Positions 2,309-29,362 of a DNA stretch of 29,362 nt are shown one piece after another. The DNA is from a virus, in the IMG/VR virus record IMGVR_UViG_3300036806_000207, positions 1 to 29,362 of that record. The stretch is one strand, 5' to 3'. The notes below the pieces were generated by a model. It saw only the letters and a program-made list of their open reading frames with translations, was not told where the DNA came from and ran no database searches. How positions within the stretch are numbered: position 1 is the stretch's first letter; each line of letters opens with the position of its first letter. Both the position numbers and the translations under genes were made by a program.

Positions 2309-3099
2309 TTTCTTCACCGAACAGAATGAGTCGGTGCGAGCGCCTCTCCAGGGTCAGGGATGCAGAGGCGTCGTACCAGACTCTTGCTCGCGGGCTCGTG
2401 TTTGCGTACTCACAGCGACACGGCGCTCCGTTCGACGAGGTCACGGGGGCCACTGGCGTCCCGACGAGCGCAACGAGCGGAGCTGACCTGAACGTAGTCG
2501 GGACGCAGTTCACCGGCGGAGCGGACCTGGCTTCAGTGATCAACTTCGGTCAGTTCGATGGCACTGCCGACTTGAACGAATCGCCCGCTACGTGGGCCTT
2601 CTACTGCTCGTGGAACGCTGGAGCGAACAGATTCAGTCCCGCATGCCACGAGGACAACAACGTGGCTCACGGCTGGCAGGTTGGACAAGATTTATTCTCG
2701 GGCAACGCTGGCGCGGGGCTCACGCTGATCCGTAGCGTGAACGACATGCGGGCGCTCACGTCGATGGTCAACGTACCGATTGGTGTGCCGTTCACGTTTG
2801 TCGTTACGCACGACGGTTCGAGCACATCGGCGAACTGCAACATCTACATCGACGCGGTTCTTCAGGCGCACGGCGTGGCTGCTCAGAACGGCAACGGCAC
2901 GACGGGAGGCCCGGCGACCGCCGAAAGCCTATACCTCGGTCGTGGAAGGATACCGAGTCCAGGTGGCTCGCACAGTGGTTCGATCTACGTGGCTCTCATC
3001 GCCAACCGTCAGTGGTCACTGGCGGAAGTAGAGGCTTTCGACAAGAACCCGATGGCGGCAATCTCGAGGCCGAGGATGCTGCCGTGGTTCCCATTGTAG
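2305..3099 (+). CDS. LamG/concanavalin A-like virion protein
   Basis: A 264-residue protein starting with ATG at 2305, overlapping the previous stop; a second in-frame ATG lies at 2326. From about residue 95 the sequence shows the pattern of phage laminin-G/concanavalin-like jelly rolls: TWAFYCSWNAG, a central PFTFVVTHDGS strand, NCNIYIDAVLQ, then YLGRGR and the typical ending WSLAEVEAFDKNP followed by RPRMLPWF. That last signature recurs in LamG-domain phage proteins. Such domains bind glycans and sit on capsid or tail surfaces. Together with the gene before it, this forms a two-gene surface-protein pair upstream of the packaging genes. An extra N-terminal 60 residues probably anchor it. Confidence 0.65.
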   Translation: MISSPNRMSRCERLSRVRDAEASYQTLARGLVFAYSQRHGAPFDEVTGATGVPTSATSGADLNVVGTQFTGGADLASVINFGQFDGTADLNESPATWAFYCSWNAGANRFSPACHEDNNVAHGWQVGQDLFSGNAGAGLTLIRSVNDMRALTSMVNVPIGVPFTFVVTHDGSSTSANCNIYIDAVLQAHGVAAQNGNGTTGGPATAESLYLGRGRIPSPGGSHSGSIYVALIANRQWSLAEVEAFDKNPMAAISRPRMLPWFPL

Positions 3100-3108
3100 G
3101 AGGACAGG

Positions 3109-3264
3109 ATGCCGTTCAAGTCAAAGTCGCAGCAGAGAGCCATGGAGGCAAAAGCGGACCGTGGCGAGATCCCCAAGAAGACGATTCGGGAGTTCGAGCG
3201 AGCAACGGACTTCAGCAGACTTCCGGAACGAGTCAAAAAGAAAGTGAAGAAAAGGAGACGATGA
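3109..3264 (+). CDS. Tiny basic phage protein (MPFKSKSQQR-type), 51 aa
   Basis: A short gene preceded by an excellent ribosome-binding site AGGAGGA at 3098-3104. The protein starts MPFKSKSQQRAMEAK, the hallmark start of a widespread family of tiny phage proteins of unknown function, and ends in a cluster of lysines and arginines (VKKKVKKRRR). It is very basic and probably binds nucleic acid or packs against capsid acid patches, but no role is established. Its TGA at 3262-3264 overlaps the ATG of the next small gene. Confidence 0.7.
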   Translation: MPFKSKSQQRAMEAKADRGEIPKKTIREFERATDFSRLPERVKKKVKKRRR

Positions 3265-3434
3265 TGCGAAAACCGAAACTGGGTTCAGGAGCGAGATTCG
3301 AAGCTATCGAAGAAAAAGCCGAGAGGGGTGGCGCCAGGAACCCGCGAGCCGTAGCGGCGGCCGTGGGCATCAAGAAGTACGGAAAGAAGAAGATGGCGAA
3401 GATGGCGGCGAAAGGACGCGCGCGGAAATACTGA
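3261..3434 (+). CDS. Tiny basic phage protein, 57 aa
   Basis: It starts at the double ATG at 3261, behind AAGGAGAC, inside the end of the previous gene. The reading upstream of 3261 is a shadow of the LamG and tiny-protein genes. The segment GARNPRAVAAAVGIKKYGKK, then KMAKMAAKGRAR, matches by eye a common small phage protein pattern (a short helix, a GRKKYGKKKF-like turn, a basic end). It is strongly basic. It is commonly found beside terminase or structural genes, with no known biochemical role. It ends in TGA directly abutting the GTG of the terminase gene. Confidence 0.65.
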   Translation: MMRKPKLGSGARFEAIEEKAERGGARNPRAVAAAVGIKKYGKKKMAKMAAKGRARKY

Positions 3435-4922
3435 GTGCAGGGCATCTACACACCGAGTCGCTGGGGCGCCGAATTCCACCAATTGAGCGTGGATGAGGCG
3501 CTCGGCGCTGGCTCTGCCGGCCCCGGAAAGACCATGGTTCTTCTCATGGACCCCATGTCTCAGGTGAAGGTCGAGGACGAACGTTGCAGGAATTCGCGGC
3601 ACAAGTTTCCGCTCCGGTGGGGACAGAGCAGGGGATGGGCGCTACATCTGCGCCGGACGATGCCGATGCTTGAGCAGACCATCGTCATCTCGAAGCGACT
3701 GTTCCCGCAAATCGATCCGAAGGCTGATTTTGCCGAACAGACCCATACGTGGACGTTCGGTAGCGGAATGCGCTACCAGTTCGGTCACTGCAAGGATATC
3801 GGCTCGTGGCAGCAGTATTTCTCAAATGAGTTCACATTCATCGGGTATGACGAACTCGTGCAATTCGACGAGGAGCAGTTCACACAGATCAACAGCCGAC
3901 TTCGTACGAGCGACCCCGTCCTTCGGCAGATGCTGAAGATTCGGGCCATGTCGAACCCCGTGATGCATCGTGAGGAGATGTCCGGAGCCGCCGTGCGTAA
4001 CCCACACTGGGTCCGAGACCGATTCGTGAAGCCGCACCGTGAGGGCAACGTGGTGATGAAGCGCAAGCTCGTCGACCACGAAGGCGCCGTGCGATGGTGG
4101 ACACGCATCTACAAGCCCGCGAAACTCTGGGACAACCCCGACAAGGAGTTCGTCCGAACGTACGAGCGGAACCTGCTGAACATGCCGTCGCACATGCGTC
4201 GGGCCCTCCTCGAAGGCGACTGGTGGGTGACGATGGGCTCGTTCTTCGGGGATGTCTGGAACGAGCGTTTGCACGTGTGCAAGCCATTCAACATTCCGCC
4301 GGACTGGAAGCGGTTTCGTTCGATGGACTGGGGTTACAAGGCGTATGGTGTCATCCACTGGTGGGCGATGGACTACGACGACAACCTGTTCTGTGAACGG
4401 GAATTCTCGTTCAAGGGAATGCACCCTCCTGAGGTAGCGAAGGAGATCGAGAGCATCGAGAAGTCGATGGGACTTTGGAAGAAGGGACGGAGTGTCATCA
4501 CTGGGCCGTCGGACACTCAGCTCTGGGAAGAGCGTGGAGAGACGAGCAAGAGCAAGTTTCAGGAGTTCGCCGAGTGCGGAGTGAACTGGGTTCAAGCGGA
4601 CAAGAAGAGCCGAGTGAAGAACGCTGGCCGGGTGTCGCACCGGCTGAAGGACCACGAAAACGGCACAACTACTCCTGGCCTCGTGTTTTTCAGCATCTGT
4701 GACCGAGCCATCGAGACGGTGCCTTCTATCGGAACGGATCCGAGCGATATCGAGTGTCCACTCGACGGGGGAGAAGACCACTGGTACGATTCCGTCGCCT
4801 ACGCATGCGCCTACGCTTCGCATGGCCGGCAAGGTATTCCCGCGCACCAGAAAGATGACGATGAGTTCAACGATGATCTCGCTATCGAGAAGCCCCGTGG
4901 GCGTCTGGGGTACGGTTGGTGA
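3435..4922 (+). CDS. terL: Terminase large subunit (DNA-packaging ATPase and nuclease)
   Basis: The 495-residue packaging motor protein hydrolyses ATP to pump DNA into the procapsid through the portal and cuts the concatemer. It starts with GTG at 3435, right after the previous stop. The Walker A motif GSAGPGKT is at residues 26-33. The Walker B motif FIGYDE has D139 and E140. The ATPase coupling region MSNPV follows around residue 175. The C-terminal RNase H-like nuclease begins with SMDWGY (D298), continues with a likely second acid in TGPSD (D360) and ends with EDHWYDS (D448, D452), the usual third acidic cluster. Length is normal for the family. The stop overlaps the portal gene start. 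All key residues appear intact. Confidence 0.95.
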   Translation: MQGIYTPSRWGAEFHQLSVDEALGAGSAGPGKTMVLLMDPMSQVKVEDERCRNSRHKFPLRWGQSRGWALHLRRTMPMLEQTIVISKRLFPQIDPKADFAEQTHTWTFGSGMRYQFGHCKDIGSWQQYFSNEFTFIGYDELVQFDEEQFTQINSRLRTSDPVLRQMLKIRAMSNPVMHREEMSGAAVRNPHWVRDRFVKPHREGNVVMKRKLVDHEGAVRWWTRIYKPAKLWDNPDKEFVRTYERNLLNMPSHMRRALLEGDWWVTMGSFFGDVWNERLHVCKPFNIPPDWKRFRSMDWGYKAYGVIHWWAMDYDDNLFCEREFSFKGMHPPEVAKEIESIEKSMGLWKKGRSVITGPSDTQLWEERGETSKSKFQEFAECGVNWVQADKKSRVKNAGRVSHRLKDHENGTTTPGLVFFSICDRAIETVPSIGTDPSDIECPLDGGEDHWYDSVAYACAYASHGRQGIPAHQKDDDEFNDDLAIEKPRGRLGYGW

Positions 4923-7105
4923 TGGCTGACCGAGGAGAAGTCTCGTCTGAGGACGAGCCGGTCATCGAAATCGACGACGCGCCAGGGCATGGCGGTTTCT
5001 ATCCGGACCTTTCGAAGCCCAACATGGTCCTTCAATTCGAGGCCGATTCGGACGGGAAGGCAGCGCTAGACGAAATCGCCGACAAGGTCATCCGAGACTT
5101 CGACGAAGCCTTCGACGGCAGCTCTCAGTGGCGGGAGCGGTACACCCAGGACTGGCGTATTTTCTGCGGAGAGCTGCCGAAAAAGACCTTTCCGTTCGAA
5201 AATTGCGCCAACGCGCATGTCCCCATCCTGATTACGAACGCGCTGCGGGTGGTCTCTCGTCTCTCTTCGGAGATTTTCGAGGACTATTCGGACGTTTTCA
5301 CGTTCACACCGGTGGGTTCGACCGATGAGGAGAGGGAAGAGGCTCGGATACTCACGATCCACGGAAATTGGCAAATCCGCGAGCAAATGGCGGACTTTTC
5401 GCGCCAACAGGAACGTGGGCTCCTGATGTACATCGTGACCGGGGACGTTACGAGCCATGCTTACTACGACTTCGAGCGCCGAGCGCCGCGGAACGTGATG
5501 CTCACGTGCGACGATTTCGTGACGCCGTACAGTCACGTGTCGACGATGCCGGACTACTCGGATGTTCCGTACCGGGTCGAGGTGCTTCGATACCAGCGGC
5601 ACGAGCTCCAGGCGATGCGTGACCAGTGGGAGCACGTAGACGATGTGCTCGAGGGGCGCATGACAGGAGACGACGACGAGCCGGAGGCGATGCTGTCGCA
5701 GGCGATGGCTGAGTTTCACGGCATAGAGGTACCAACGGCTCAGGATTCCGGCTCCTACAAGCTTCTCTGGTACGAGGGGTGGCTCGAGCTCCCGGGTCAG
5801 AACAAGGATCGCTTCTGTCAGGTGGTGGTGGACTACCAGACAAAGCAGGTTTTGAAGCTTGCGCTGCACGAGCGGGTGAACTGGGAGGACAAGGTCCGGT
5901 ACGACAACCAGATGGGGGAGATTGTCGGCTACAGGAACGCCCAGCAGCAGCACGAGCATGCGATGCGTCAGGTGCTTAAGGGCGCTGCGGCGCTTGGGCA
6001 AGCTCACATGGAGGGCCAGATGGGGCCGGAACACACGGTAGCTGCATCTCAGGCGCTGAGTCAGGCAGTGCCGCCGAAACCCCAGCCTCCGGCGTGGATG
6101 AGCGATCCGGAAGATCCGGAAGCGTCGCCTGCTGCGCCACGGATGGACCCAATCCACCTATACAGTCACGCCGTATGCATCGAGCCGCTCGCCGGAAATC
6201 TGGGGCTCTCGTACGGGCGCATTCTCTCGGACTACAACCTTGCGGCAAACACGCTGCTATCGCAGTTCATCGATGCCGCGACGGTGGCGAACGCTCCGCC
6301 GCTGCTCACCCCGGAGGACATTTCTTTCGAGAGCCCGATGGACATATCGCCTGGCAAGCAGATCAAGGTGATCGGTGCCATCGGTGCGGATCTGTCCACA
6401 AAGGTGATTCCGCTCAAGGGGTCACCCGGAAACCCCCAGATGGTCGAGCTGATCAACTTGATCTCAGGATGGGGCTCGGAGGCGGCACAATCGCCGGACG
6501 TGCTCTCTGGGGAGCCAGGTAAGTCCGGAGAGACGTATCGAGGCATCGCGACGCGCGTGGAGCAGGCCACGAAGCAACTTTCGTGGTTCGGGCGCCGGTA
6601 CGCTAATCCGTTTCTGAAGCAGCAGTTGATGAATATTGCGTGGCTGAACTCGGTGTTCATGAAGGACGAAGAGATCATCTCCGTCGTGAACAGCGCGCTT
6701 GGCTTTAGCGGCACCCTGAAACTGTCGCGGAAGATGTATCAGCGGGACTACAAGATTGAAATCCGTAGCGACCTTCGCTTTGCCTCTGAAGAGCAGCAGA
6801 TGGGTGAGGCCATGCAGGTGCTTCAGCTTGTCCAGGGCAATCCGCTTCTTCAGCAGAACCTGGCGCTTCAGTACAACGCCATCCGCGGGGTCTTCCAGGC
6901 AATGAAACGGTACGATTTGGTGAAGTTGCTGGGGACTCCGCCGGCCGCATCGCCAACATTCGGACCGCCGCCCGCGCCTCCCGGACCGCCTCCGGGTGCG
7001 ACGGGAACCCCTCCGGGGCAACCCGGCCAACCTCCTGGCCCTCCGGGGCCGCACCCAGTTTCTAGCAACGCGCCCGGAGTGGGCGGACCGGTAAAGGCAG
7101 CATGA
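4922..7105 (+). CDS. Portal protein
   Basis: A 727-residue protein that would form the dodecameric DNA-entry ring at one capsid vertex. The ATG at 4922 overlaps the terminase stop as TGATG; in-frame TTG (4916) and GTG (4919) are less likely. The N-terminal part (about 55-210) has the look of podovirus-type portals: SSQWRERYTQDWRIF, then FENCANAHVPILITNALRVV, and a conserved-looking VTGDVTSHAYYDF. The middle contains a long helix-rich wing. A segment rich in E/Q/M (about residues 620-650) suits the barrel helices. The last 60 residues are extremely proline- and glycine-rich and likely disordered. Position right after terL and size support the call. Confidence 0.85.
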   Translation: MADRGEVSSEDEPVIEIDDAPGHGGFYPDLSKPNMVLQFEADSDGKAALDEIADKVIRDFDEAFDGSSQWRERYTQDWRIFCGELPKKTFPFENCANAHVPILITNALRVVSRLSSEIFEDYSDVFTFTPVGSTDEEREEARILTIHGNWQIREQMADFSRQQERGLLMYIVTGDVTSHAYYDFERRAPRNVMLTCDDFVTPYSHVSTMPDYSDVPYRVEVLRYQRHELQAMRDQWEHVDDVLEGRMTGDDDEPEAMLSQAMAEFHGIEVPTAQDSGSYKLLWYEGWLELPGQNKDRFCQVVVDYQTKQVLKLALHERVNWEDKVRYDNQMGEIVGYRNAQQQHEHAMRQVLKGAAALGQAHMEGQMGPEHTVAASQALSQAVPPKPQPPAWMSDPEDPEASPAAPRMDPIHLYSHAVCIEPLAGNLGLSYGRILSDYNLAANTLLSQFIDAATVANAPPLLTPEDISFESPMDISPGKQIKVIGAIGADLSTKVIPLKGSPGNPQMVELINLISGWGSEAAQSPDVLSGEPGKSGETYRGIATRVEQATKQLSWFGRRYANPFLKQQLMNIAWLNSVFMKDEEIISVVNSALGFSGTLKLSRKMYQRDYKIEIRSDLRFASEEQQMGEAMQVLQLVQGNPLLQQNLALQYNAIRGVFQAMKRYDLVKLLGTPPAASPTFGPPPAPPGPPPGATGTPPGQPGQPPGPPGPHPVSSNAPGVGGPVKAA

Positions 7106-22747: not shown

Positions 22748-24543
22748 AAGTTAGCGAGTCGCTGCTGATGCGATATGGAGATGGATATGGCACCCCTCTC
22801 CCGATTCCGATGGTGGCGCAGGTGGGCGCTCCAGATATCCAAATCAGCGGGACGGCAGTTGAGGGCGGATCGCTGGATCTATCGTGGCTGCTCCCACCGA
22901 TCGGAACGACGTCTGTGACTTTCAAGGACGGAGCGACGACGATCAACACTGACAGCTCGGCGCCATGGGAATTCACGGTTACAGGACTCACGGCCGGGGC
23001 GCATGCCTATCACGCGGTTGCGTCCCCAGACGGCACAGACACCGGCACGGCGAATGTGTTCGTCGCTCCCGCGGCACCGAGCGTAGTAGCGCCGGTTGCA
23101 GAGGCCGTATCGGTCGGCGCGTCTGTGGCCCTTGATGTCACGACGATCGATGATTCGATCACTAGCGGCATCGATGCAGTGATAACGGGTCCGGCGTCTT
23201 TCACAACCACAATCCATCTGACTCTCTCTACAGGGCATTGGACAGGCTCTTGGAATACCTCGGGACTGTCCGCCGGTAATTATGTAGTTACATGTGTAAG
23301 GCACACCTCCGCGGGAGATGCGAGCGCCCTCGGGATTGCCATCTCCGTAGCAGCGGCATTTACTGTCCAAACAGACACACTGTTCGCCGCGGGAACGTGG
23401 ATCTCTCCGGCGAACTACAAATCGCTCTCTGGGACGGCGAATCATGTGCTCGTCGAGCTGTGGGGCAACGGCGGCGGCGGTAAGGCCGCTACTGGCGGCG
23501 GCGGAGGCGGGGCCTATGCCGCGGGCGATTTCGCAGGCGCAACTTCGACGGGCTACGCAGTCGGCGGTCTCGGTACGGTCGCAATCGACACCGACGGCGC
23601 AGATACTACGTTCAACACCTCGAGCATCGTCGCCAAGGGTGGTCAGGGGCGCACGAACGGGGGCGCTGGTGGCACCGCCGGCGCGAGCATTGGGACGACC
23701 AAATACACCGGTGGCGCGGGCTCGACAGGCGCTGGCAACGTTTTCGGCGGGGGCAGCGCGGGCAGCGCGGGCGATGCGTCCACGACTACGGGCGGCACTC
23801 CCGATGGCACTTATACTGCTGGATTTGGGATCGGGTCGAATCACTATGGCGCAGGTGGCGCAAGCTCCGGGTCATTGGGCCGGGCTGGCGGTGTGGGTCT
23901 TGCGGCAATGACTTACATGATACCCGGGGCAGGCGGCGCGTGCATCGCCTCCGCGCCCGTGATCACTCGCGACACGGCCGCTGCGTTGAGCCACACCGTG
24001 ACACCACCGGCCGGGAGCGGCGGAATGCTGATCTACGTGGTCGCGGGGGCGGGCGCCGCGACGTTGACCATGGTTGGCTTCACTACGTTGGCGCAAGCGT
24101 CAGAGGGATCAGTAGAACTTGCGTGCTTCTACGCCATCGACACGGGTTTACTAGGTACTACGATCACATCCACCGCAAGCATTCGGCTTCTGACTCGCGG
24201 TTTTCGTTTGACTGGACCTGACGGCACGAGCGCGCCGGGCACCCCATTTTGGACGACCTCTACGGGGAACTCTACTACACCCGATCCGCCGTCCAACACA
24301 GGGACAAGTGCATCGTATCTCGTCATTGCTGCAATCGGAATAGCACAAAGCGCTGCGGATATAGGGATCACTGCCGGACCTAGCGGATACGTGTCGGTGC
24401 GGCCGACGACCGCGGCCTTCGCGACGGGGCCCGCGCTACTAACTGCAGAGAAGTATTTCACGGGTACAACCGAGAACCCGGGCGCTGTCACGATGACTTC
24501 GAACCACTGGGCGGCAGGGACAATCTTCGTACCACCGGCATGA
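22744..24543 (+). CDS. Tail fibre with Ig-like and glycine-rich domains
   Basis: A 599-residue protein read from TTG at 22744, which overlaps the previous stop (TTGA); ATG 22768 is an alternative start 8 codons later. Residues about 30-110 and 112-205 look like two Ig-like/bacterial-Ig-type domains (for example PWEFTVTGLTAGAHAYHAVA and WTGSWNTSGLSAGNYVVTCV). Residues 208-400 begin TLFAAGTWISPAN, then VLVELWGNGGGGKAATGGGG, matching the glycine-rich tail-tip domains found in many phage fibres. The C-terminal part (about 405-599) starts SAPVITRDTAAALSHTVTPP and is beta-rich. The likely role is adhesion at the host surface; the receptor is unknown. Confidence 0.65.
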   Translation: MKVSESLLMRYGDGYGTPLPIPMVAQVGAPDIQISGTAVEGGSLDLSWLLPPIGTTSVTFKDGATTINTDSSAPWEFTVTGLTAGAHAYHAVASPDGTDTGTANVFVAPAAPSVVAPVAEAVSVGASVALDVTTIDDSITSGIDAVITGPASFTTTIHLTLSTGHWTGSWNTSGLSAGNYVVTCVRHTSAGDASALGIAISVAAAFTVQTDTLFAAGTWISPANYKSLSGTANHVLVELWGNGGGGKAATGGGGGGAYAAGDFAGATSTGYAVGGLGTVAIDTDGADTTFNTSSIVAKGGQGRTNGGAGGTAGASIGTTKYTGGAGSTGAGNVFGGGSAGSAGDASTTTGGTPDGTYTAGFGIGSNHYGAGGASSGSLGRAGGVGLAAMTYMIPGAGGACIASAPVITRDTAAALSHTVTPPAGSGGMLIYVVAGAGAATLTMVGFTTLAQASEGSVELACFYAIDTGLLGTTITSTASIRLLTRGFRLTGPDGTSAPGTPFWTTSTGNSTTPDPPSNTGTSASYLVIAAIGIAQSAADIGITAGPSGYVSVRPTTAAFATGPALLTAEKYFTGTTENPGAVTMTSNHWAAGTIFVPPA

Positions 24544-25349
24544 GGCGCCGAGATTTCCTAGCGGGCCTTTCCGCAATTGCATGCTCCACAAGGGACCCAA
24601 TGACGTTTTACATCGACTCGAACCCACATCCAACACATGGTCGCGGCGTCATTATGATATCGGGACAATCTAACAACCTCCAAATGGGGTATGGTAGTGA
24701 CCTCAGCGGGGGAGATTTAGTGTATCTTGCCGCGGATTCGAATATCTGGTACACAAATCTCGGATACTCCAATAAGACTACGCTCGAGTACAATATAGAC
24801 TGGGAGCCTTTGTCCACGACCAACACGCCCACGCATCTCGGCTATGAAATGGCGCTTGGACACACACTGGATGTTGCGGGAAAACGGTTTGCGCTATCGA
24901 AATATGCGCGCGGCGGGACCGCAATAGCCGAATGGACGTCTAACGGTTGGTTCGTCGAGGCGGCGGCCCGTCATACCGCGCAGATCGCCGCATTGGCCGC
25001 TGCCACGGGTGAAAATGTCTACCCCGCGGCGCTTATTTGGTGCCAGGGCGAAGACGAGAGATCTAACACCGTATCTACGTGGGCCGCGCAATTGGCTGCT
25101 GGAGTGGCCACTATTCGCCAAATAGTCGGCAGGATTCAGTTACCTGTCATAGTGGTCCAAACTCAGGACTACGACGGCTCCACTGACACAGGGATCCGTG
25201 CAGCAGAGGCAGCGTTTGTAGCCGCGGACGCTCACGCATCGCTCGTTGATACGTCGGCCTACCCGTACGCAAACCCGCCGCACTGGAATGCAACCCAATA
25301 CTGTCGGATAGGGGAGCTATGCAAAACAGCTCTAAATTTAGTGCTATGA
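24540..25349 (+). CDS. SGNH/SASA-type carbohydrate esterase
   Basis: A 269-residue hydrolase. Its GQSN motif (residues 42-45, S44 the likely nucleophile), then ARGGTAI (123-129), WCQGEDE (167-173) and PPHWN (H248) follow the order of the sialate O-acetylesterase/DUF303-like group of SGNH esterases. These remove acetyl groups from surface sugars. After the fibre gene, a tail-linked deacetylase acting on O-antigen or capsule is likely. Start choice matters: ATG 24540 (ATGA overlap) gives MRRRDFLAGLSAIAC, a twin-arginine-type signal, while ATG 24600, behind AAGGGA, gives a mature protein. G+C content is visibly lower than in the flanks, a sign of recent acquisition. Confidence 0.7.
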   Translation: MRRRDFLAGLSAIACSTRDPMTFYIDSNPHPTHGRGVIMISGQSNNLQMGYGSDLSGGDLVYLAADSNIWYTNLGYSNKTTLEYNIDWEPLSTTNTPTHLGYEMALGHTLDVAGKRFALSKYARGGTAIAEWTSNGWFVEAAARHTAQIAALAAATGENVYPAALIWCQGEDERSNTVSTWAAQLAAGVATIRQIVGRIQLPVIVVQTQDYDGSTDTGIRAAEAAFVAADAHASLVDTSAYPYANPPHWNATQYCRIGELCKTALNLVL

Positions 25350-25362
25350 AAACGACAGAAAT

Positions 25363-25395
25363 CCTCTGGCACCAATGTGGCAAGAGTTGGAGAGG
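25363..25395 (+). terminator. Hairpin after the esterase gene (terminator-like, uncertain)
   Basis: CCTCT (25363-25367) pairs with AGAGG (25391-25395) and CCAA (25372-25375) with TTGG (25387-25390), with a GGCA bulge and an 11-base loop. No T-run follows at once; T-rich sequence comes about 15 to 35 bases downstream. It may slow or end late transcription or protect the 3' end of the message. Confidence 0.3.
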
Positions 25396-25432
25396 CTGCG
25401 GCAACGGTAGTTAATTTGGTATTTTGATATTT

Positions 25433-25464
25433 TTGCGGAACCCGCGGCAATTGTGTGGTAGAAT
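25433..25464 (+). promoter_or_regulatory. Possible promoter with extended -10
   Basis: TGG-TAGAAT (25456-25464) matches an extended -10 (TGnTATAAT) with one mismatch. TTGCGG (25433-25438) is a poor -35 with a 20-base spacer, but an extended -10 may not need one. The AT-rich stretch just upstream could act as an UP-like element. It would start a message for the gene at 25499 and the cassette behind it. Confidence 0.35.
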
Positions 25465-25498
25465 TCGCCGTATCGGCTTTCTGAGAACAGGAGAAATC

Positions 25499-25675
25499 AT
25501 GCCCAACGGAACCTTCGCTATCATCACGACTCTCATCGGTGCGCTAGGCACCGCTCTCGCGTCGAATGGAATCGGTTCGACGGCGCTCGACGGTGCGCTA
25601 GTGACCGTGGCGCTCGCCATTGTGAGCCATTTCGCGCAGAACTCGGCGCCTCCGAAGGCCGCGGTGAAGGCGTGA
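25499..25675 (+). CDS. Small membrane protein, possible holin, 58 aa
   Basis: It starts with ATG at 25499 behind AGGAG; the longer reading from 25424 adds a tail from the intergenic region. Two hydrophobic stretches are visible, FAIITTLIGALGTALA (about residues 6-21) and ALVTVALAIVSHFA (about 33-46), separated by a short polar turn, so two membrane helices are plausible. The C-terminus is short, with lysines. Small two-helix membrane proteins beside an endolysin are often holins, which time lysis. The stop overlaps the next GTG. The holin role is inference. Confidence 0.5.
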   Translation: MPNGTFAIITTLIGALGTALASNGIGSTALDGALVTVALAIVSHFAQNSAPPKAAVKA

Positions 25676-26715
25676 TTCACCCGCGTATTCGCGCCGAGGT
25701 CGTAAAGGTGGCCTGCTTCGCCGCGGGAGGTCTACTGCTCGTCGCCGTGGCTGCCTGCTCGTCGCTCTTCCACTTCTCGAGTCCTTCGGCGCAAGCCGTC
25801 TCTTGTGCGGTAGGTGCCGACGTGCTTCCTGAACTCGAGGCCGACGCCGCAATCTGCGGCCCGCTCGCGCCAATGTGCGAGTCGCTACTCGTGACTGTGT
25901 TCGGGTACGGATGCTCCGGTGCCGTAGTGTCCGGAGCGAATCAGGCGGAGGCGACGGCTGCCGGGCTCAAGGCGGCGCGCGCGGCGAAGATCAGCTTGTT
26001 GCCATCCGCGATTGATCTCGCGGGCACCGCTCCGGCCATCTTCGATCAAGGAGACACCGGCTCTTGCTGGGCTCACGCGACCGCCAGGGCCGCCGCCAAC
26101 GCGCTTACGCTCAAGGCTCTCCCGCTGGGCTACGTGCCTTCTCCGGACTGCCTGTACCGTCTCGGACGTTGCATGATGCGCTCGGCGGGAGAGACTTCGG
26201 GACCGCTGACGGATACCGGTACCGACCCGTTCTACGGCATGATGGGCCTGTCCCAGTTCGGCGTGACGGTGATGGGACCGAGTGTCGACGGCCGCAACTC
26301 TGACTGCTCGACGACGAGCATCGGCAAAGAGCCCATCCTGTCCGAGCTTGAGCGCGAAGCTCGCGCGCTACTCGTCGGAGCGTGGCAAATCACTTCTACC
26401 GGAACGCAGCGACTCGCCGATATCTCCGCCGCGCTTGCCGCCAATCTGCCCGTGACCATCGGCGTGAATGCAGATCAGGCGCTCGAGGACTGGTCTCCCG
26501 ACAAGCCGCCGCTTGGCGCCCCGGACCCGGCGAATCTGCTCGGTGGCCACATGCTTTGTGTCGAAGGGATCACCGTGGCCGGAGATTTCGTCGTGGCGAA
26601 CTCGTGGGGCACAGAGTGGGGCGACTCCGGGCGCTTCCTCGCTTCGCCCGCATGGGTGCTCGACCCGGGCGTTGGCGATCTGTACGTATTCGGCGTCTTG
26701 CCGGGGAGCTACTGA
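25672..26715 (+). CDS. Papain-family (C1A) cysteine protease made as a lipoprotein
   Basis: A 347-residue protein starting with GTG at 25672 (GTGA overlap). The N-terminus has a basic head, a hydrophobic stretch and a lipobox-like VAAC with C29, so it is likely exported and lipidated. The catalytic set of papain enzymes is complete: Q126 (oxyanion) and C132 in DQGDTGSCWAHA, H293 in GGHMLCVEG, and N310 in VANSWGTEWGDSG. Spacing Q-C of 6 and H-N of 17 fits the family. Residues 30-115 carry four cysteines (45, 62, 69, 81) and could be a pro-region. Few phages carry such an enzyme. Sitting between holin-like and amidase genes, it may attack host surface proteins during lysis or infection. Confidence 0.8.
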   Translation: MIHPRIRAEVVKVACFAAGGLLLVAVAACSSLFHFSSPSAQAVSCAVGADVLPELEADAAICGPLAPMCESLLVTVFGYGCSGAVVSGANQAEATAAGLKAARAAKISLLPSAIDLAGTAPAIFDQGDTGSCWAHATARAAANALTLKALPLGYVPSPDCLYRLGRCMMRSAGETSGPLTDTGTDPFYGMMGLSQFGVTVMGPSVDGRNSDCSTTSIGKEPILSELEREARALLVGAWQITSTGTQRLADISAALAANLPVTIGVNADQALEDWSPDKPPLGAPDPANLLGGHMLCVEGITVAGDFVVANSWGTEWGDSGRFLASPAWVLDPGVGDLYVFGVLPGSY

Positions 26716-26716
26716 G

Positions 26717-27058
26717 ATGCGCGCCATTCTCCTCGTCGCTCTAGCTATCGCCTTTCTGCCAGCCGCGAGCTGCTCCAAGCCCGCTCCGGCGCCTCCGACG
26801 CCTCCTTCGCCGGTGCCCCCGCCAAGTCCTCGCGCAGACGCGGCGCCGCCACTTCTTGGCGACGCCTTCGATCAGGCATGCTCGGCGCTGGCTGCCGTCG
26901 GTTGTCCCGAAGGGAAGCCTTCGGATTGCGCGGCGGTCATGAGAAAGACGGCGGCTTCAGGCTTGACGACGGTGCCAGCAAACTGCCTTGCGAAAGCTGG
27001 GAGCGTCGCGGCGATTCGCGCTTGCGGAAGATTCGTATCGTGTGCGGGGGTGCCGTGA
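26717..27058 (+). CDS. Proline-rich, six-cysteine lipoprotein, 113 aa
   Basis: It starts with ATG at 26717, one base after the protease stop. It has a clear export signal with C19 at the end (LPAASC); the lipobox is a variant with alanine at -3. Residues 20-46 are proline/alanine-rich (KPAPAPPTPPSPVPPPSPR). Residues 50-113 have six cysteines (55, 63, 71, 90, 103, 109), with FDQACSALAAVGCPEG at the start, likely a disulfide-bonded helical bundle. In a phage lysis region a small proline-rich lipoprotein recalls Rz1-type outer-membrane spanins, yet the cysteine domain is unlike them. It could also be a partner, inhibitor or substrate of the adjacent protease. Confidence 0.6.
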   Translation: MRAILLVALAIAFLPAASCSKPAPAPPTPPSPVPPPSPRADAAPPLLGDAFDQACSALAAVGCPEGKPSDCAAVMRKTAASGLTTVPANCLAKAGSVAAIRACGRFVSCAGVP

Positions 27059-27177
27059 AACCTCTTGCTACTGCTGCTCTTCGCGGTGGTCGGGCCACAC
27101 CGGTTTCCGCTGCGGTGAGCGAGTTTTTTGGCTGGCTCGCGATACTCTTCCTCGGCGCCGTCGCCCTCTTCATGTGA
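27055..27177 (+). CDS. Tiny membrane protein, 40 aa
   Basis: It starts with GTG at 27055, overlapping the previous stop (GTGA), and reads MKPLATAALRGGRATPVSAA before a C-terminal membrane helix FFGWLAILFLGAVALFM that runs to the end. The short length and single helix suggest a membrane anchor or holin-type peptide. It lies between the lipoproteins and the amidase. No family is recognised. The coupled start supports that it is translated. Confidence 0.45.
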   Translation: MKPLATAALRGGRATPVSAAVSEFFGWLAILFLGAVALFM

Positions 27178-27181
27178 ATCC

Positions 27182-27352
27182 ATGTCGGACCGCTATCTCG
27201 ACGCACTCATTCGAGCCCGGGAAGCGGCTGCGACGTCCGTGACGGAACTCACGGCGGCGATCCGACAGTACCGTGAGGCCCAGTCTCGCGAGGAGATGCC
27301 GACGCAGCCGGAATTGCGCGTAGAGCTCAGAGCGGGTAGGAGTGAACGGTGA
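27182..27352 (+). CDS. Small coiled-coil protein, 56 aa
   Basis: It starts with ATG at 27182, a few bases after the previous stop. The sequence MSDRYLDALIRAREAAATSV, then TELTAAIRQYREAQSREE, predicts one amphipathic helix, followed by a basic tail. There is no membrane segment, so it is not an inner-membrane spanin by itself. Its stop overlaps the GTG of the amidase. It may act together with the membrane peptide before it; the function is unknown. Confidence 0.5.
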   Translation: MSDRYLDALIRAREAAATSVTELTAAIRQYREAQSREEMPTQPELRVELRAGRSER

Positions 27353-27990
27353 ATCCATTCGATCCATCGGCGCCCTTCATCCAAGCGAAGCATTTCACCT
27401 GGATATCTCCGCTGCACCCGCGCGTAGTGAACTTGCTCGAGCTCCATTCCGAAGAGAACCCGGACAAGCCAGGCTCTGCGCTCGCCGTCGCAAATTGGTT
27501 CGGCTCGACGCTTTCCCCGGAAGCCTCCCCGCATGCTTGCGTCGACCCTGTGCAGGTCGTTTGCTGCGTCGATCCGAAGGATATCTCCTGGGCGTGCGGG
27601 GCCGCGAACTGGGGCAGCTACAGCCTCGAATGCGGCGGCTACGCGAAATGGACGCGCGACGTGTGGCTCTCCGAAGGGCAAACTCCCATGCTCGGGCTCG
27701 CGGCATCGCACTTGAAGAAGGCGGCTGCATACTTCGGCATTCCAGCGGTATTGCTCTCCGACGACGACGTCGCGAAGTGCATCCTGGACTCGTGGCACCG
27801 TGAGCACGGCGTGCGGGTCACCGGTCCGCATCCGGGAGGCATCACGACTCATGCGCAGACGAATCGCGTGCTGAAGTCGTGGCAGACGAACGGACTGCCG
27901 AAGCCAGTGGGCGACCTGAGTCATACTGACCCGGGCGACGGTTTCCCGCTCGATGTGCTGATCCAAATGATCAACGAGGAGCCGACGTGA
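27349..27990 (+). CDS. Endolysin, Amidase_2-type N-acetylmuramoyl-L-alanine amidase
   Basis: A 213-residue enzyme expected to cut the amide between N-acetylmuramate and L-alanine in peptidoglycan. The GTG at 27349 lies behind GTAGGAG (27335-27341). Family landmarks are a strand ending LLELHSEEN (H33, likely zinc ligand), SPHACVD (H62), WACGAANWGSYSLECGGYA (substrate groove), GIPAVLLSDDD, then GGITTHAQTN (H168) and SHTDPGDGFP (H192, D194). In AmpD-like enzymes the last zinc ligands come from a His and the Asp of a DPG motif, which would be H168 or H192 with D194. There is no signal peptide, so it needs a holin. Six cysteines are unusual for a cytoplasmic enzyme. Confidence 0.75.
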   Translation: MNPFDPSAPFIQAKHFTWISPLHPRVVNLLELHSEENPDKPGSALAVANWFGSTLSPEASPHACVDPVQVVCCVDPKDISWACGAANWGSYSLECGGYAKWTRDVWLSEGQTPMLGLAASHLKKAAAYFGIPAVLLSDDDVAKCILDSWHREHGVRVTGPHPGGITTHAQTNRVLKSWQTNGLPKPVGDLSHTDPGDGFPLDVLIQMINEEPT

Positions 27991-28232
27991 GCACCCAAAA
28001 TGATATCGTTCGAGCGCTGAAAATCATTGCCGCTCAGCTCGAGAATATCTCCGAGCACGTGTCCGGCATACAACGTACGCAAGACGACGATATCGTTCCA
28101 GTTTTGGCGGCCACCTCCGATCGTGTCGGAGAAATGCAGGGACGACTGCTAGGCGTGGCCGATGCCATGGGAGAGCGGCTTAAAAATGTCGAGCAACGGC
28201 TCAGATCGCTCGAAGCGTCCTCTCTCCGCTGA
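27987..28232 (+). CDS. Small coiled-coil protein after the amidase, 81 aa
   Basis: It starts with GTG at 27987 in a GTGA overlap with the amidase. Residues 5-30 and 50-78 are heptad-like helices (IVRALKIIAAQLENISEHVS and GERLKNVEQRLRSLEASS). There is no membrane segment or signal. A trimer or dimer coil is likely. It overlaps the next gene by 47 bases. It might pair with the following membrane protein, but no role is known. Confidence 0.5.
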   Translation: MSTQNDIVRALKIIAAQLENISEHVSGIQRTQDDDIVPVLAATSDRVGEMQGRLLGVADAMGERLKNVEQRLRSLEASSLR

Positions 28233-28491
28233 GGCGCTACGTCAGGTCATTGAAGACATCGCCGACGGCGATTGGCGCGAGGACTCGTCTGTCACCGTCG
28301 TGGTGGAACAGCGCTCGAAGACGCCCCTCCCTGCTCCTGTGCGGATAGAGCAGGCGTCATCGGCGTCGATTCGTGTCGGACTGGGTGGTGTGCGGATCCG
28401 ACTGTCGCAGATGCCGCCATGGTTGGCGATCGTGTTTCTCGTAGCGGCTATCGGGTTCGTTGCGGCTGTCGCAAGCGGATTGCTACACTAA
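28186..28491 (+). CDS. Membrane protein with C-terminal helix, 101 aa
   Basis: It is read from ATG at 28186 (an upstream ATG at 28162 would add eight residues). A charged N-terminal part includes ALRQVIEDIADGDWREDSSV and a strand-rich SVTVVVEQRSKTP with RVGLGGVRIRL. The end is one membrane helix, PPWLAIVFLVAAIGFVAAVA, about residues 78-97. This is a tail-anchored layout, with most of the protein in the cytoplasm. It might be a holin, pinholin or antiholin-like regulator, or an anchor for the preceding coiled-coil protein. It ends in TAA at 28489-28491, just before the convergent gene cluster. Confidence 0.5.
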   Translation: MSSNGSDRSKRPLSAEALRQVIEDIADGDWREDSSVTVVVEQRSKTPLPAPVRIEQASSASIRVGLGGVRIRLSQMPPWLAIVFLVAAIGFVAAVASGLLH

Positions 28492-28504
28492 GGAGGATTT
28501 CATG
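28490..28504 (+). promoter_or_regulatory. Strong Shine-Dalgarno with ATG pointing into an antisense gene
   Basis: AAGGAGG (28490-28496) stands five bases before the ATG at 28502, a near-ideal rightward start signal. The reading behind it (to 28660, 52 residues, mostly S, R and A) has no protein-like pattern and lies fully antisense to the leftward gene ending at 28500. It looks like the remnant of a lost gene's start, a new overlapping gene, or chance. Confidence 0.4.
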
Positions 28505-28886
28505 GCTGCCACTTCATCCCGGTCAATTCCGCGAGAAATTCGCAAAGCTCTCGTGTCGTCCGCTGCGCCGCAAAAACGCTGTCTCGCCACATCATGTCCG
28601 CCGCGCAGAGCACGGCGAAATCTCCCGAGTGCCGCTCGCTCAGTTCATCGCGACCGATGACGCTAGAGGAGAACGGGCTCCTGCGTTCCGAAATCGTGCC
28701 GTCGAAGTGATACGACTTCGCGTTCCCGTACTCGTTGGGTTCCGCGGCGATCGCTTCTACGCCCAACCGGTCTCGAATCTCTATCGCGACCGCATTCATG
28801 CGCGCGAATTGCACGTCACGCTTGTCGTTCGCCGCATCGGATACCGCGACGAGTCTTTGAAGCGTTTTGATTTGTTCGTGTGTCAT
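28500..28886 (-). CDS. Leftward hypothetical protein, 128 aa
   Basis: A protein-like reading on the minus strand, starting with ATG at 28886 and ending with TGA at 28500. The first half is a charged helix (IKTLQRLVAVSDAANDKRD, then AIEIRDRLGVEAIAAEPNE). The second half includes HSGDFAVLCAADMMWRDSVF and TTRELCEFLAELTG. No membrane segment, signal or known motif is seen. The gene is coupled to the upstream zinc-ribbon gene by an ATGA overlap. Its direction, opposite to all late genes, suggests an early or middle gene. Confidence 0.6.
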   Translation of the reverse strand: MTHEQIKTLQRLVAVSDAANDKRDVQFARMNAVAIEIRDRLGVEAIAAEPNEYGNAKSYHFDGTISERRSPFSSSVIGRDELSERHSGDFAVLCAADMMWRDSVFAAQRTTRELCEFLAELTGMKWQP

Positions 28887-29059
28887 GTCGTTCGCGCCGT
28901 TTCTTGCCTACAGCCCAGCCACGCCATGAACTCATCCCAACATTTCGGATGCCACCAATGGACGACATCTGCCGCATCGTCTCGTCGCAGGGTGGCGCCC
29001 GGTTCGCCGCACCTTGTGCAGCGGTGAATGACACGGCTCACTGTCTTCTGTTGCTTCAA
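28883..29059 (-). CDS. Small leftward zinc-ribbon-like protein, 58 aa
   Basis: A short minus-strand gene. Its core reads VIHRCTRCGEPGATL, then VVHWWHPKCWDEFMAWLGCR, with CxxC at the start and HPKC plus a later Cys as further metal ligands. The stop (28883-28885) overlaps the ATG at 28886 (ATGA). The start is uncertain: TTG at 29059 overlaps the stop of the upstream gene as TTGA, a coupling also seen at 22744, while GTG at 29041 gives 52 residues. Small zinc-binding phage proteins like this often alter host enzymes or bind nucleic acid; nothing here tells which. Confidence 0.55.
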   Translation of the reverse strand: MKQQKTVSRVIHRCTRCGEPGATLRRDDAADVVHWWHPKCWDEFMAWLGCRQETARTT

Positions 29060-29343
29060 TTCGCGCCATCCTTTCCTTGAGCTTGATCACGAGCCTTAAC
29101 GTGAAGCCACTGCGCGAACCGTGCCACCGTCTCGGCGTCGTCTTTCGTGAGCGTCACGCCGCAATCGTCGGCGCATGCCTGGACGCGCTCCCGGCACTCG
29201 TCGAGGGTCTGCGTTTCGGCGTGCTTCGAGTGAAGGGGGCAGTGCTCAGAGTCGAGACACGGCTCACCAACAGCGGTACGGTCACACGTACAATCGCCGT
29301 GAACCGGGCACCAGAGTGCGGTCAAGCCGGTGCAGACATTCAA
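29056..29343 (-). CDS. Leftward cysteine/histidine-rich protein, about 95 aa (5' end uncertain)
   Basis: A minus-strand reading with the motifs LWCPVHGDCTC and EHCPLHSKHAE, the CPxH repeats of a small zinc-binding family often found in phages. A helical end follows (ETVARFAQWLHVKARDQAQ). The start is not settled: TTG at 29343 has AGGTGG just upstream. The frame stays open to the right edge, so the gene may begin outside the window. The ATG at 29339 is in another frame and stops soon. It probably belongs to an early-type leftward operon with the two genes after it. Confidence 0.55.
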   Translation of the reverse strand: MNVCTGLTALWCPVHGDCTCDRTAVGEPCLDSEHCPLHSKHAETQTLDECRERVQACADDCGVTLTKDDAETVARFAQWLHVKARDQAQGKDGAN

Positions 29344-29362
29344 AGGCGGCCACCTAGGGTAG

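Follow-up and report, generated by a model that had tools for sequence, protein, structure and literature searches.

Here we analysed an entire linear IMG/VR virus record (IMGVR_UViG_3300036806_000207; 29,362 bases, 60% G+C), below called the window; because it is the whole record and linear, further parts of the phage may be missing. At positions 25499-28491 it carries a compact block of genes in which a papain-like protease of family C1A lies among lysis genes. Standard phage lysis consists of holin, endolysin and spanin steps against membrane and peptidoglycan. The recurrence of C1A genes in the lysis cassettes described below points to a lysis step against envelope proteins. We put at about even chances that the window block is an end-of-infection module of a tailed phage whose protease serves in the envelope alongside the lysis genes. 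The simplest account of the material is that this protease cuts envelope proteins so that disruption is completed.

The block consists of eight open reading frames (ORFs), g1 to g8, whose neighbours overlap or lie at most 4 bases apart. From g1 to g8 the junctions are a 4-bp overlap, a 1-bp gap, a 4-bp overlap, a 4-bp gap, two 4-bp overlaps and a 47-bp overlap, and the eight small, translationally coupled genes that the original prediction had described are present as read from the sequence. Its suggestion that the block may have its own promoter did not hold up, as no sigma-70-like promoter was found within 24300-29362 (0 found; 1.1 in shuffles). Because the plausible ORFs from 28500 onward are on the minus strand, the cassette closes the rightward late operon. 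The genes and their upstream neighbour are the following (aa, amino acids; TM, transmembrane segment).

25499..25675, plus strand: g1, holin-like (putative) 58-aa protein with hydrophobic segments 5-21 and 30-46
25672..26715, plus strand: g2, C1A papain-like protease of 347 aa, GTG start (PF00112)
26717..27058, plus strand: g3, Pro- and Cys-rich small lipoprotein (predicted) of 113 aa, lipobox AASC
27055..27177, plus strand: g4, 40-aa single-TM protein (TM prediction)
27182..27352, plus strand: g5, 56-aa charged protein, probably helical, no family match
27349..27990, plus strand: g6, probable Amidase_2-type endolysin of 213 aa without signal sequence (PHROG 12609)
27987..28232, plus strand: g7, 81-aa coiled-coil-like protein (ORF reading)
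28186..28491, plus strand: g8, 101-aa protein with one C-terminal TM at 80-96 (TM prediction)
24540..25349, plus strand: SASA-type carbohydrate esterase, upstream neighbour (PF03629, 3.2e-14)

The g2 protein matches PF00112 at E=8.5e-7 and 29.7 bits (cut-off 20.7), and its nearest relative, the protease of locus L003 (IMG/VR 3300047314_000275; 53-54% identical), reaches 34.7 bits. Both the complete set Q126/C132/H293/N310 and the lipobox Cys29 that had been claimed for the protease are found in g2, and the four catalytic residues are invariant across 68 aligned phage C1A proteins. The protein divides into a lipoprotein signal (residues 1-29), a Cys-containing linker (about 30-100) and a papain fold (about 105-346). 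AlphaFold2 predicted the catalytic part with a pLDDT of 65-98 per block, mostly above 85, and the N-terminal part poorly. The best Foldseek match of the model is xylellain (3OIS; 1.3e-12, TM 0.69 by target), with an identity of only 22% in the fold alignment, and 3OIS is also the best match of the C1A family profile (1.7e-88). By its model, g2 is a xylellain-type papain of family C1A and a predicted protease.

The N-terminus of g2 has a charged start, a hydrophobic stretch (13-29), a lipobox VAAC (26-29) and a Ser at position +2. The g3 protein has a charged n-region, a hydrophobic stretch, a lipobox (16-19), a +2 Ser, a Pro-rich linker and six Cys after the lipid Cys. Lipoboxes were called by a regular expression of our own, not by SignalP, and on this rule both g2 and g3 are predicted lipoproteins. 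The same rule found a lipobox in none of the ~133 other phage C1A proteins, two of which have plain signal peptides; from these sequences, the lipobox seems particular to the window copy. A frameshift artefact behind the joining of lipobox and protease was considered and set aside: codon-position G+C is continuous across the junction, which argues for one frame but is no proof.

Scans for C1A relatives yielded ~133 distinct loci (L numbers), forming 32 clusters at 50% identity, in records picked by protease similarity and not by lysis genes; a broad profile built from 12 C1A proteins, tried as a scan query, had no conserved stretch. We searched 49 records for Amidase_2, GH25, GH108, phage lysozyme and GH19. 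In 10 of the 21 C1A-bearing records with at least one such hydrolase, the hydrolase and C1A genes are no more than 2 kb apart, whereas random placement would give 1.8 (P about 1e-6); when the window and three near relatives are removed, the count is 6 of 17 against 1.4 (P=0.001). For instance, Gordonia phage Aleemily encodes in a row a lysin A (C39), a lysin A (amidase), a hypothetical protein, the C1A protease, a holin, a membrane protein and lysin B. Thermoanaerobacterium phage THSA-485A has a GH25 endolysin, the C1A protease and a protein with a hydrophobic start, and its endolysin and protease have a C-terminal module in common (score 65; reached by 0 of 500 shuffles). Four contigs (L005, L011, L012 and L013), which at a guess from their make-up are Negativicute-like, combine a small coiled-coil/TM protein, a C1A protease whose tail is of the Cu_amine_oxidN1 type (as matched by Pfam in L005), an amidase and a holin-like gene. 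Protease and amidase of L012 likewise have a common C-terminal module, whereas those of L005 gave no alignment of their C-termini. Further lysis cassettes with C1A are found in L085, L051, L040 and L132. Together with the coupled holin-like, amidase and lipoprotein genes of the window, this proximity beyond chance in other phages supports the lysis-type cassette that had been proposed. On a tree of the C1A proteins lysis placement takes 9 changes, compared with 13.2 when the labels are shuffled, and starred branches force at least 5 of the 9. This indicates that the placement was gained or lost repeatedly.

In Alicyclobacillus phage MMB025 (L014 3923-6184), a 753-aa protein unites Peptidase_C1, Big_1, an Rv2525c-type glycoside hydrolase and PG_binding_1. 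Like the modules common to protease and wall hydrolase in THSA-485A and L012, these wall-targeting parts speak for the envelope protease at lysis. Such a fusion of C1A to muramidase-like and PG-binding domains, like the place of the Aleemily gene near C39 and amidase lysins, would suit an enzyme that cuts wall peptides as a second endolysin activity, and a papain-family (C39-like) N5 peptidase domain is predicted in mycobacteriophage lysin A (PMC3314691). Against this role, which we judge quite unlikely, the nearest solved structures are the protein-cutting xylellain and cathepsins, and the window copy would be lipid-anchored. C1A peptidases in general are protein hydrolases, which also counts against a peptidoglycan substrate.

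The sporadic distribution of C1A genes, lone in many large phages, and the reported horizontal acquisition of xylellain-type C1A peptidases by Caudoviricetes (PMC10380794) could suggest a passenger with no role in release. Such cargo is nevertheless very unlikely, because several lineages have C1A close to lysis genes and to Cys-rich lipoproteins and the catalytic residues are conserved. Nor are the relatives lone cargo only, the finding that would have spoken against a cassette: C1A genes occur widely in phages; many of those in large phages are lone, but others, as counted above, have a hydrolase within 2 kb. As side observations among these loci, L116 (3961-4779 and 4869-5672; also L118) has a tandem C1A pair in one phage contig, and L057 encodes, upstream of C1A, an exported protein of 355 aa whose start resembles a subtilase propeptide (3058-4125), so that two proteases are possibly near each other there.

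The second recurrent element is the Pro/Cys-rich lipoprotein. Relatives of g3 adjoin C1A genes in L003 (46% identity to g3, directly after the protease), L066, L079, L110 and L120, and another g3 relative is found in L007 (3300036401_000325); z scores for this type of similarity are 8.0 for window-L066, 5.8 for L066-L120, 7.8 for L120-L007 and 7.1 for L066-L079. On the tree, the C1A proteins of the window and L003 form their own deep branch (support 99, starred) and those of L079, L110 and L120 a single starred clade; altogether, three deep branches include C1A genes with a Pro/Cys lipoprotein as neighbour. A profile scan with this lipoprotein returned only its two input sequences, and tblastn of two Pro/Cys lipoproteins against reference phages gave no match. 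By uniform criteria, 1,268 kb of C1A loci hold 14 Cys-rich exported ORFs on the C1A strand. Eight of these (seven without one near-copy) directly adjoin C1A against 0.83 expected, a comparison that serves as a guide only because the criteria were fixed after the first examples were known; the eight fall into six C1A clusters (window/L003, L040, L066, L079/L080, L110 and L120). In the gut phages MT121960 (L018 3630-4537) and MT836733 (L021 3615-4351), a lipoprotein gene runs into the start of C1A; this pair lies in a nucleotide-metabolism region (dUTPase-like; ThyX-like in L018) with no lysis cassette.

The order of parts can be followed through three loci. The L003 protease begins after a lipobox part, which ends the upstream holin-like ORF. 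L066 has the same succession of a holin-like/lipoprotein ORF, a highly diverged C1A (24% identity over the aligned part) and a Pro/Cys lipoprotein. L007 encodes a two-TM protein, a lipoprotein, a Pro/Cys lipoprotein, a small TM protein, an amidase and coiled-coil proteins. The counterpart of g1 is in the same place in L007 (65 aa), and in L003 and L066 it is joined to the part that follows; a 36-aa single-TM ORF of L007 sits before the amidase, in the place of g4. From these layouts, the order holin-like protein, Cys lipoprotein, C1A and Pro/Cys lipoprotein is kept while the fusion points differ. The original prediction had asked whether protease, six-Cys lipoprotein and amidase stay together: the proximity of lipoprotein or hydrolase recurs, but these loci do not show strict conservation of the whole cassette, as L007 illustrates. 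Between its lipoproteins and amidase L007 has a 272-aa protein with the motif SHELCEMVLDP (4828-5646), which we tried as a metalloprotease candidate (HELCEMVLDP) and dropped, as searches of Pfam, PHROG, NCBIfam, PDB and phages gave no match and its predicted fold reached a pLDDT of only 38. Small hydrophobic ORFs precede the esterase and the protease of L003 (2286-2498 and 5459-5935, respectively), and an inner start at 5648 in the second would yield a stand-alone lipoprotein.

The remaining members of the cassette fit lysis genes to differing degrees. With 58 aa, two hydrophobic segments and a place at the cassette start, g1 has the traits of a holin. The g6 protein stays under the cut-off of Pfam Amidase_2 (17.8 bits; cut-off 26) and matches the PHROG 12609 endolysin at 2.3e-15; the L007 amidase, 51% identical to it, exceeds the Pfam cut-off. 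H33 and H192 (SHTDPG motif) of g6, conserved with L007 in a comparison of two sequences only, are, from what is known of the Amidase_2 family, putative zinc ligands. The g6 protein has no signal and would need the holin. The trait of an outer spanin (o-spanin), a small Pro-rich lipoprotein, is present in g3. No inner spanin (i-spanin), with an N-terminal TM and a periplasmic coiled coil, was found within 25499-28491, the TMs of g4 and g8 being C-terminal.

Upstream of the block, the esterase starts with MRRRDFLAGLSAIAC, which resembles a twin-arginine lipoprotein signal. A SASA protein (2505-3329) upstream of the L003 cassette starts with MQLTRREFIAGAAALAC, and the two have the pattern RR(D/E)F(L/I)AG...AC in common; the SASA esterase is possibly a second exported envelope enzyme of the same set. 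This leads to what we regard as the main rival explanation, namely that the anchored protease, with the esterase and the Cys-rich lipoprotein, strips or masks receptors on cell and debris, so that progeny are spared loss and other phages are kept out. The predicted exported, membrane-anchored form of the window protease, the esterase start with its Tat/lipobox-like features (Tat, twin-arginine) in both the window and L003, and the C1A genes directly after lipoprotein genes outside lysis regions in L018 and L021 would all agree with such receptor destruction or superinfection exclusion. We think it unlikely, however, because the protease is tightly coupled to the amidase and the holin-like gene; moreover, other lysis-linked copies are signal-less and have wall-binding modules in common with endolysins, so their action would have to wait for holin opening.

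The cassette also comes after tail-fibre-like and SASA genes, and in some loci (L036, L027) the C1A gene is flanked by structural-looking genes, as it might be if the protease were a virion or entry enzyme belonging to the preceding tail region. That is highly improbable given the lipoprotein signal and the presence of lysis genes on the opposite flank; furthermore, among the lytic enzymes that the virion proteome of XacN1 is reported to contain, the C1 peptidase is missing (PMC5852040). The phage itself can be placed broadly: terminase large subunit, portal and head-closure genes are recognised by PHROGs, which makes it a tailed phage, with a terminase only ~31% identical to those of reference phages and a portal with one weak match. 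Genome-contig scans with the protease profile or the amidase profile returned no relative, so that neither a host nor a prophage came to light.

We return to the reading of an envelope protease deployed at lysis, for which we infer export, lipidation, timing, substrate and effect as follows. The protease would be made late, together with the holin-like protein and the amidase. Its Sec/lipobox signal would take it over the inner membrane, where the lipid would anchor it in the envelope, and by the E. coli rule the +2 Ser would route it to the outer membrane. There it may cut proteins of the host envelope (tethers between outer membrane and wall, for example, or proteins of the surface layer or elsewhere at the surface) as the amidase destroys the wall; the envelope would then fall apart and the progeny be freed. 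The Pro/Cys lipoprotein would be a recurrent partner, whether as anchor, cofactor, inhibitor or o-spanin-like protein. The window protease could exit the cytoplasm alone, whereas the other lysis-linked copies, mostly signal-less and sharing or gaining wall-binding modules, would have to exit with the endolysin. What unites the lysis-linked phages would be a protease located in the envelope when lysis occurs.

Several findings weigh against this reading. In jumbo and Streptomyces phages C1A is distant from the lysis genes, many phage copies have nucleotide-metabolism, tRNA or structural genes as neighbours, and most of those in large phages are lone. L007 keeps the cassette without C1A, a protein of no known family replacing the protease. 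Most relatives' proteases, including the 54%-identical one of L003, have no signal of their own, so the lipoprotein form may be peculiar to the window phage. Residues 30-100 of g2 showed no homology to the matching lipoprotein parts of L003, L066, L007 and L040 (z about 0), which leaves a correspondence of position only. The late fixing of the Cys-rich criteria belongs here as well, and it is from the lipoproteins that the host is judged to be probably diderm (bounded by an outer membrane).

A broader and doubtful extension is that several unrelated phage groups independently added to holin and endolysin a C1A envelope protease acting at lysis, which in diderm hosts, together with a dedicated Cys-rich lipoprotein, replaces or supplements spanins by cutting proteins instead of fusing membranes. 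The cassette is a candidate explanation for phages in which no spanins are recognised and may be a source of envelope-active proteases, and the pair of protease and Cys-rich lipoprotein is a new unit to seek in phage genomes.

The original prediction held that an exported, membrane-tethered protease belongs to no lysis scheme known to it. This stands in part: C1A is already present in the annotated lysis regions of Aleemily, THSA-485A and MMB025, and Caudoviricetes are recorded as carrying C1A peptidases (PMC10380794), but the lipid-anchored stand-alone form was not found described in the papers searched. In the open-licence papers searched, the combination of a papain-like or C1 peptidase with phage lysis cassettes is not described. 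The parts are of known kinds, and what appears to be undescribed in those papers is a stand-alone lipid-anchored C1A with a recurrent Cys-rich lipoprotein in a lysis cassette. Compared with the two-component spanins Rz/Rz1, the window block similarly places a small Pro-rich lipoprotein of the outer-membrane type (g3) beside an endolysin, but it is without an i-spanin-type protein, its genes are not nested and a protease is present. Mycobacteriophage lysin A also brings a papain-clan peptidase into phage lysis (PMC3314691), but its N5 is a domain within the endolysin and a predicted wall-peptide cutter, whereas g2 is separate, probably lipid-anchored and of family C1A. The C1A genes of Aleemily and THSA-485A resemble g2 in lying inside or beside lysis genes; they differ in being without a lipobox, in their monoderm or mycolic hosts and in their very low identity to g2. 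Finally, g2 has the papain fold and the Q/C/H/N set in common with the xylellain-type C1A peptidases (3OIS, PMC10380794), from which its lipobox N-terminus and its location in a lysis cassette set it apart.

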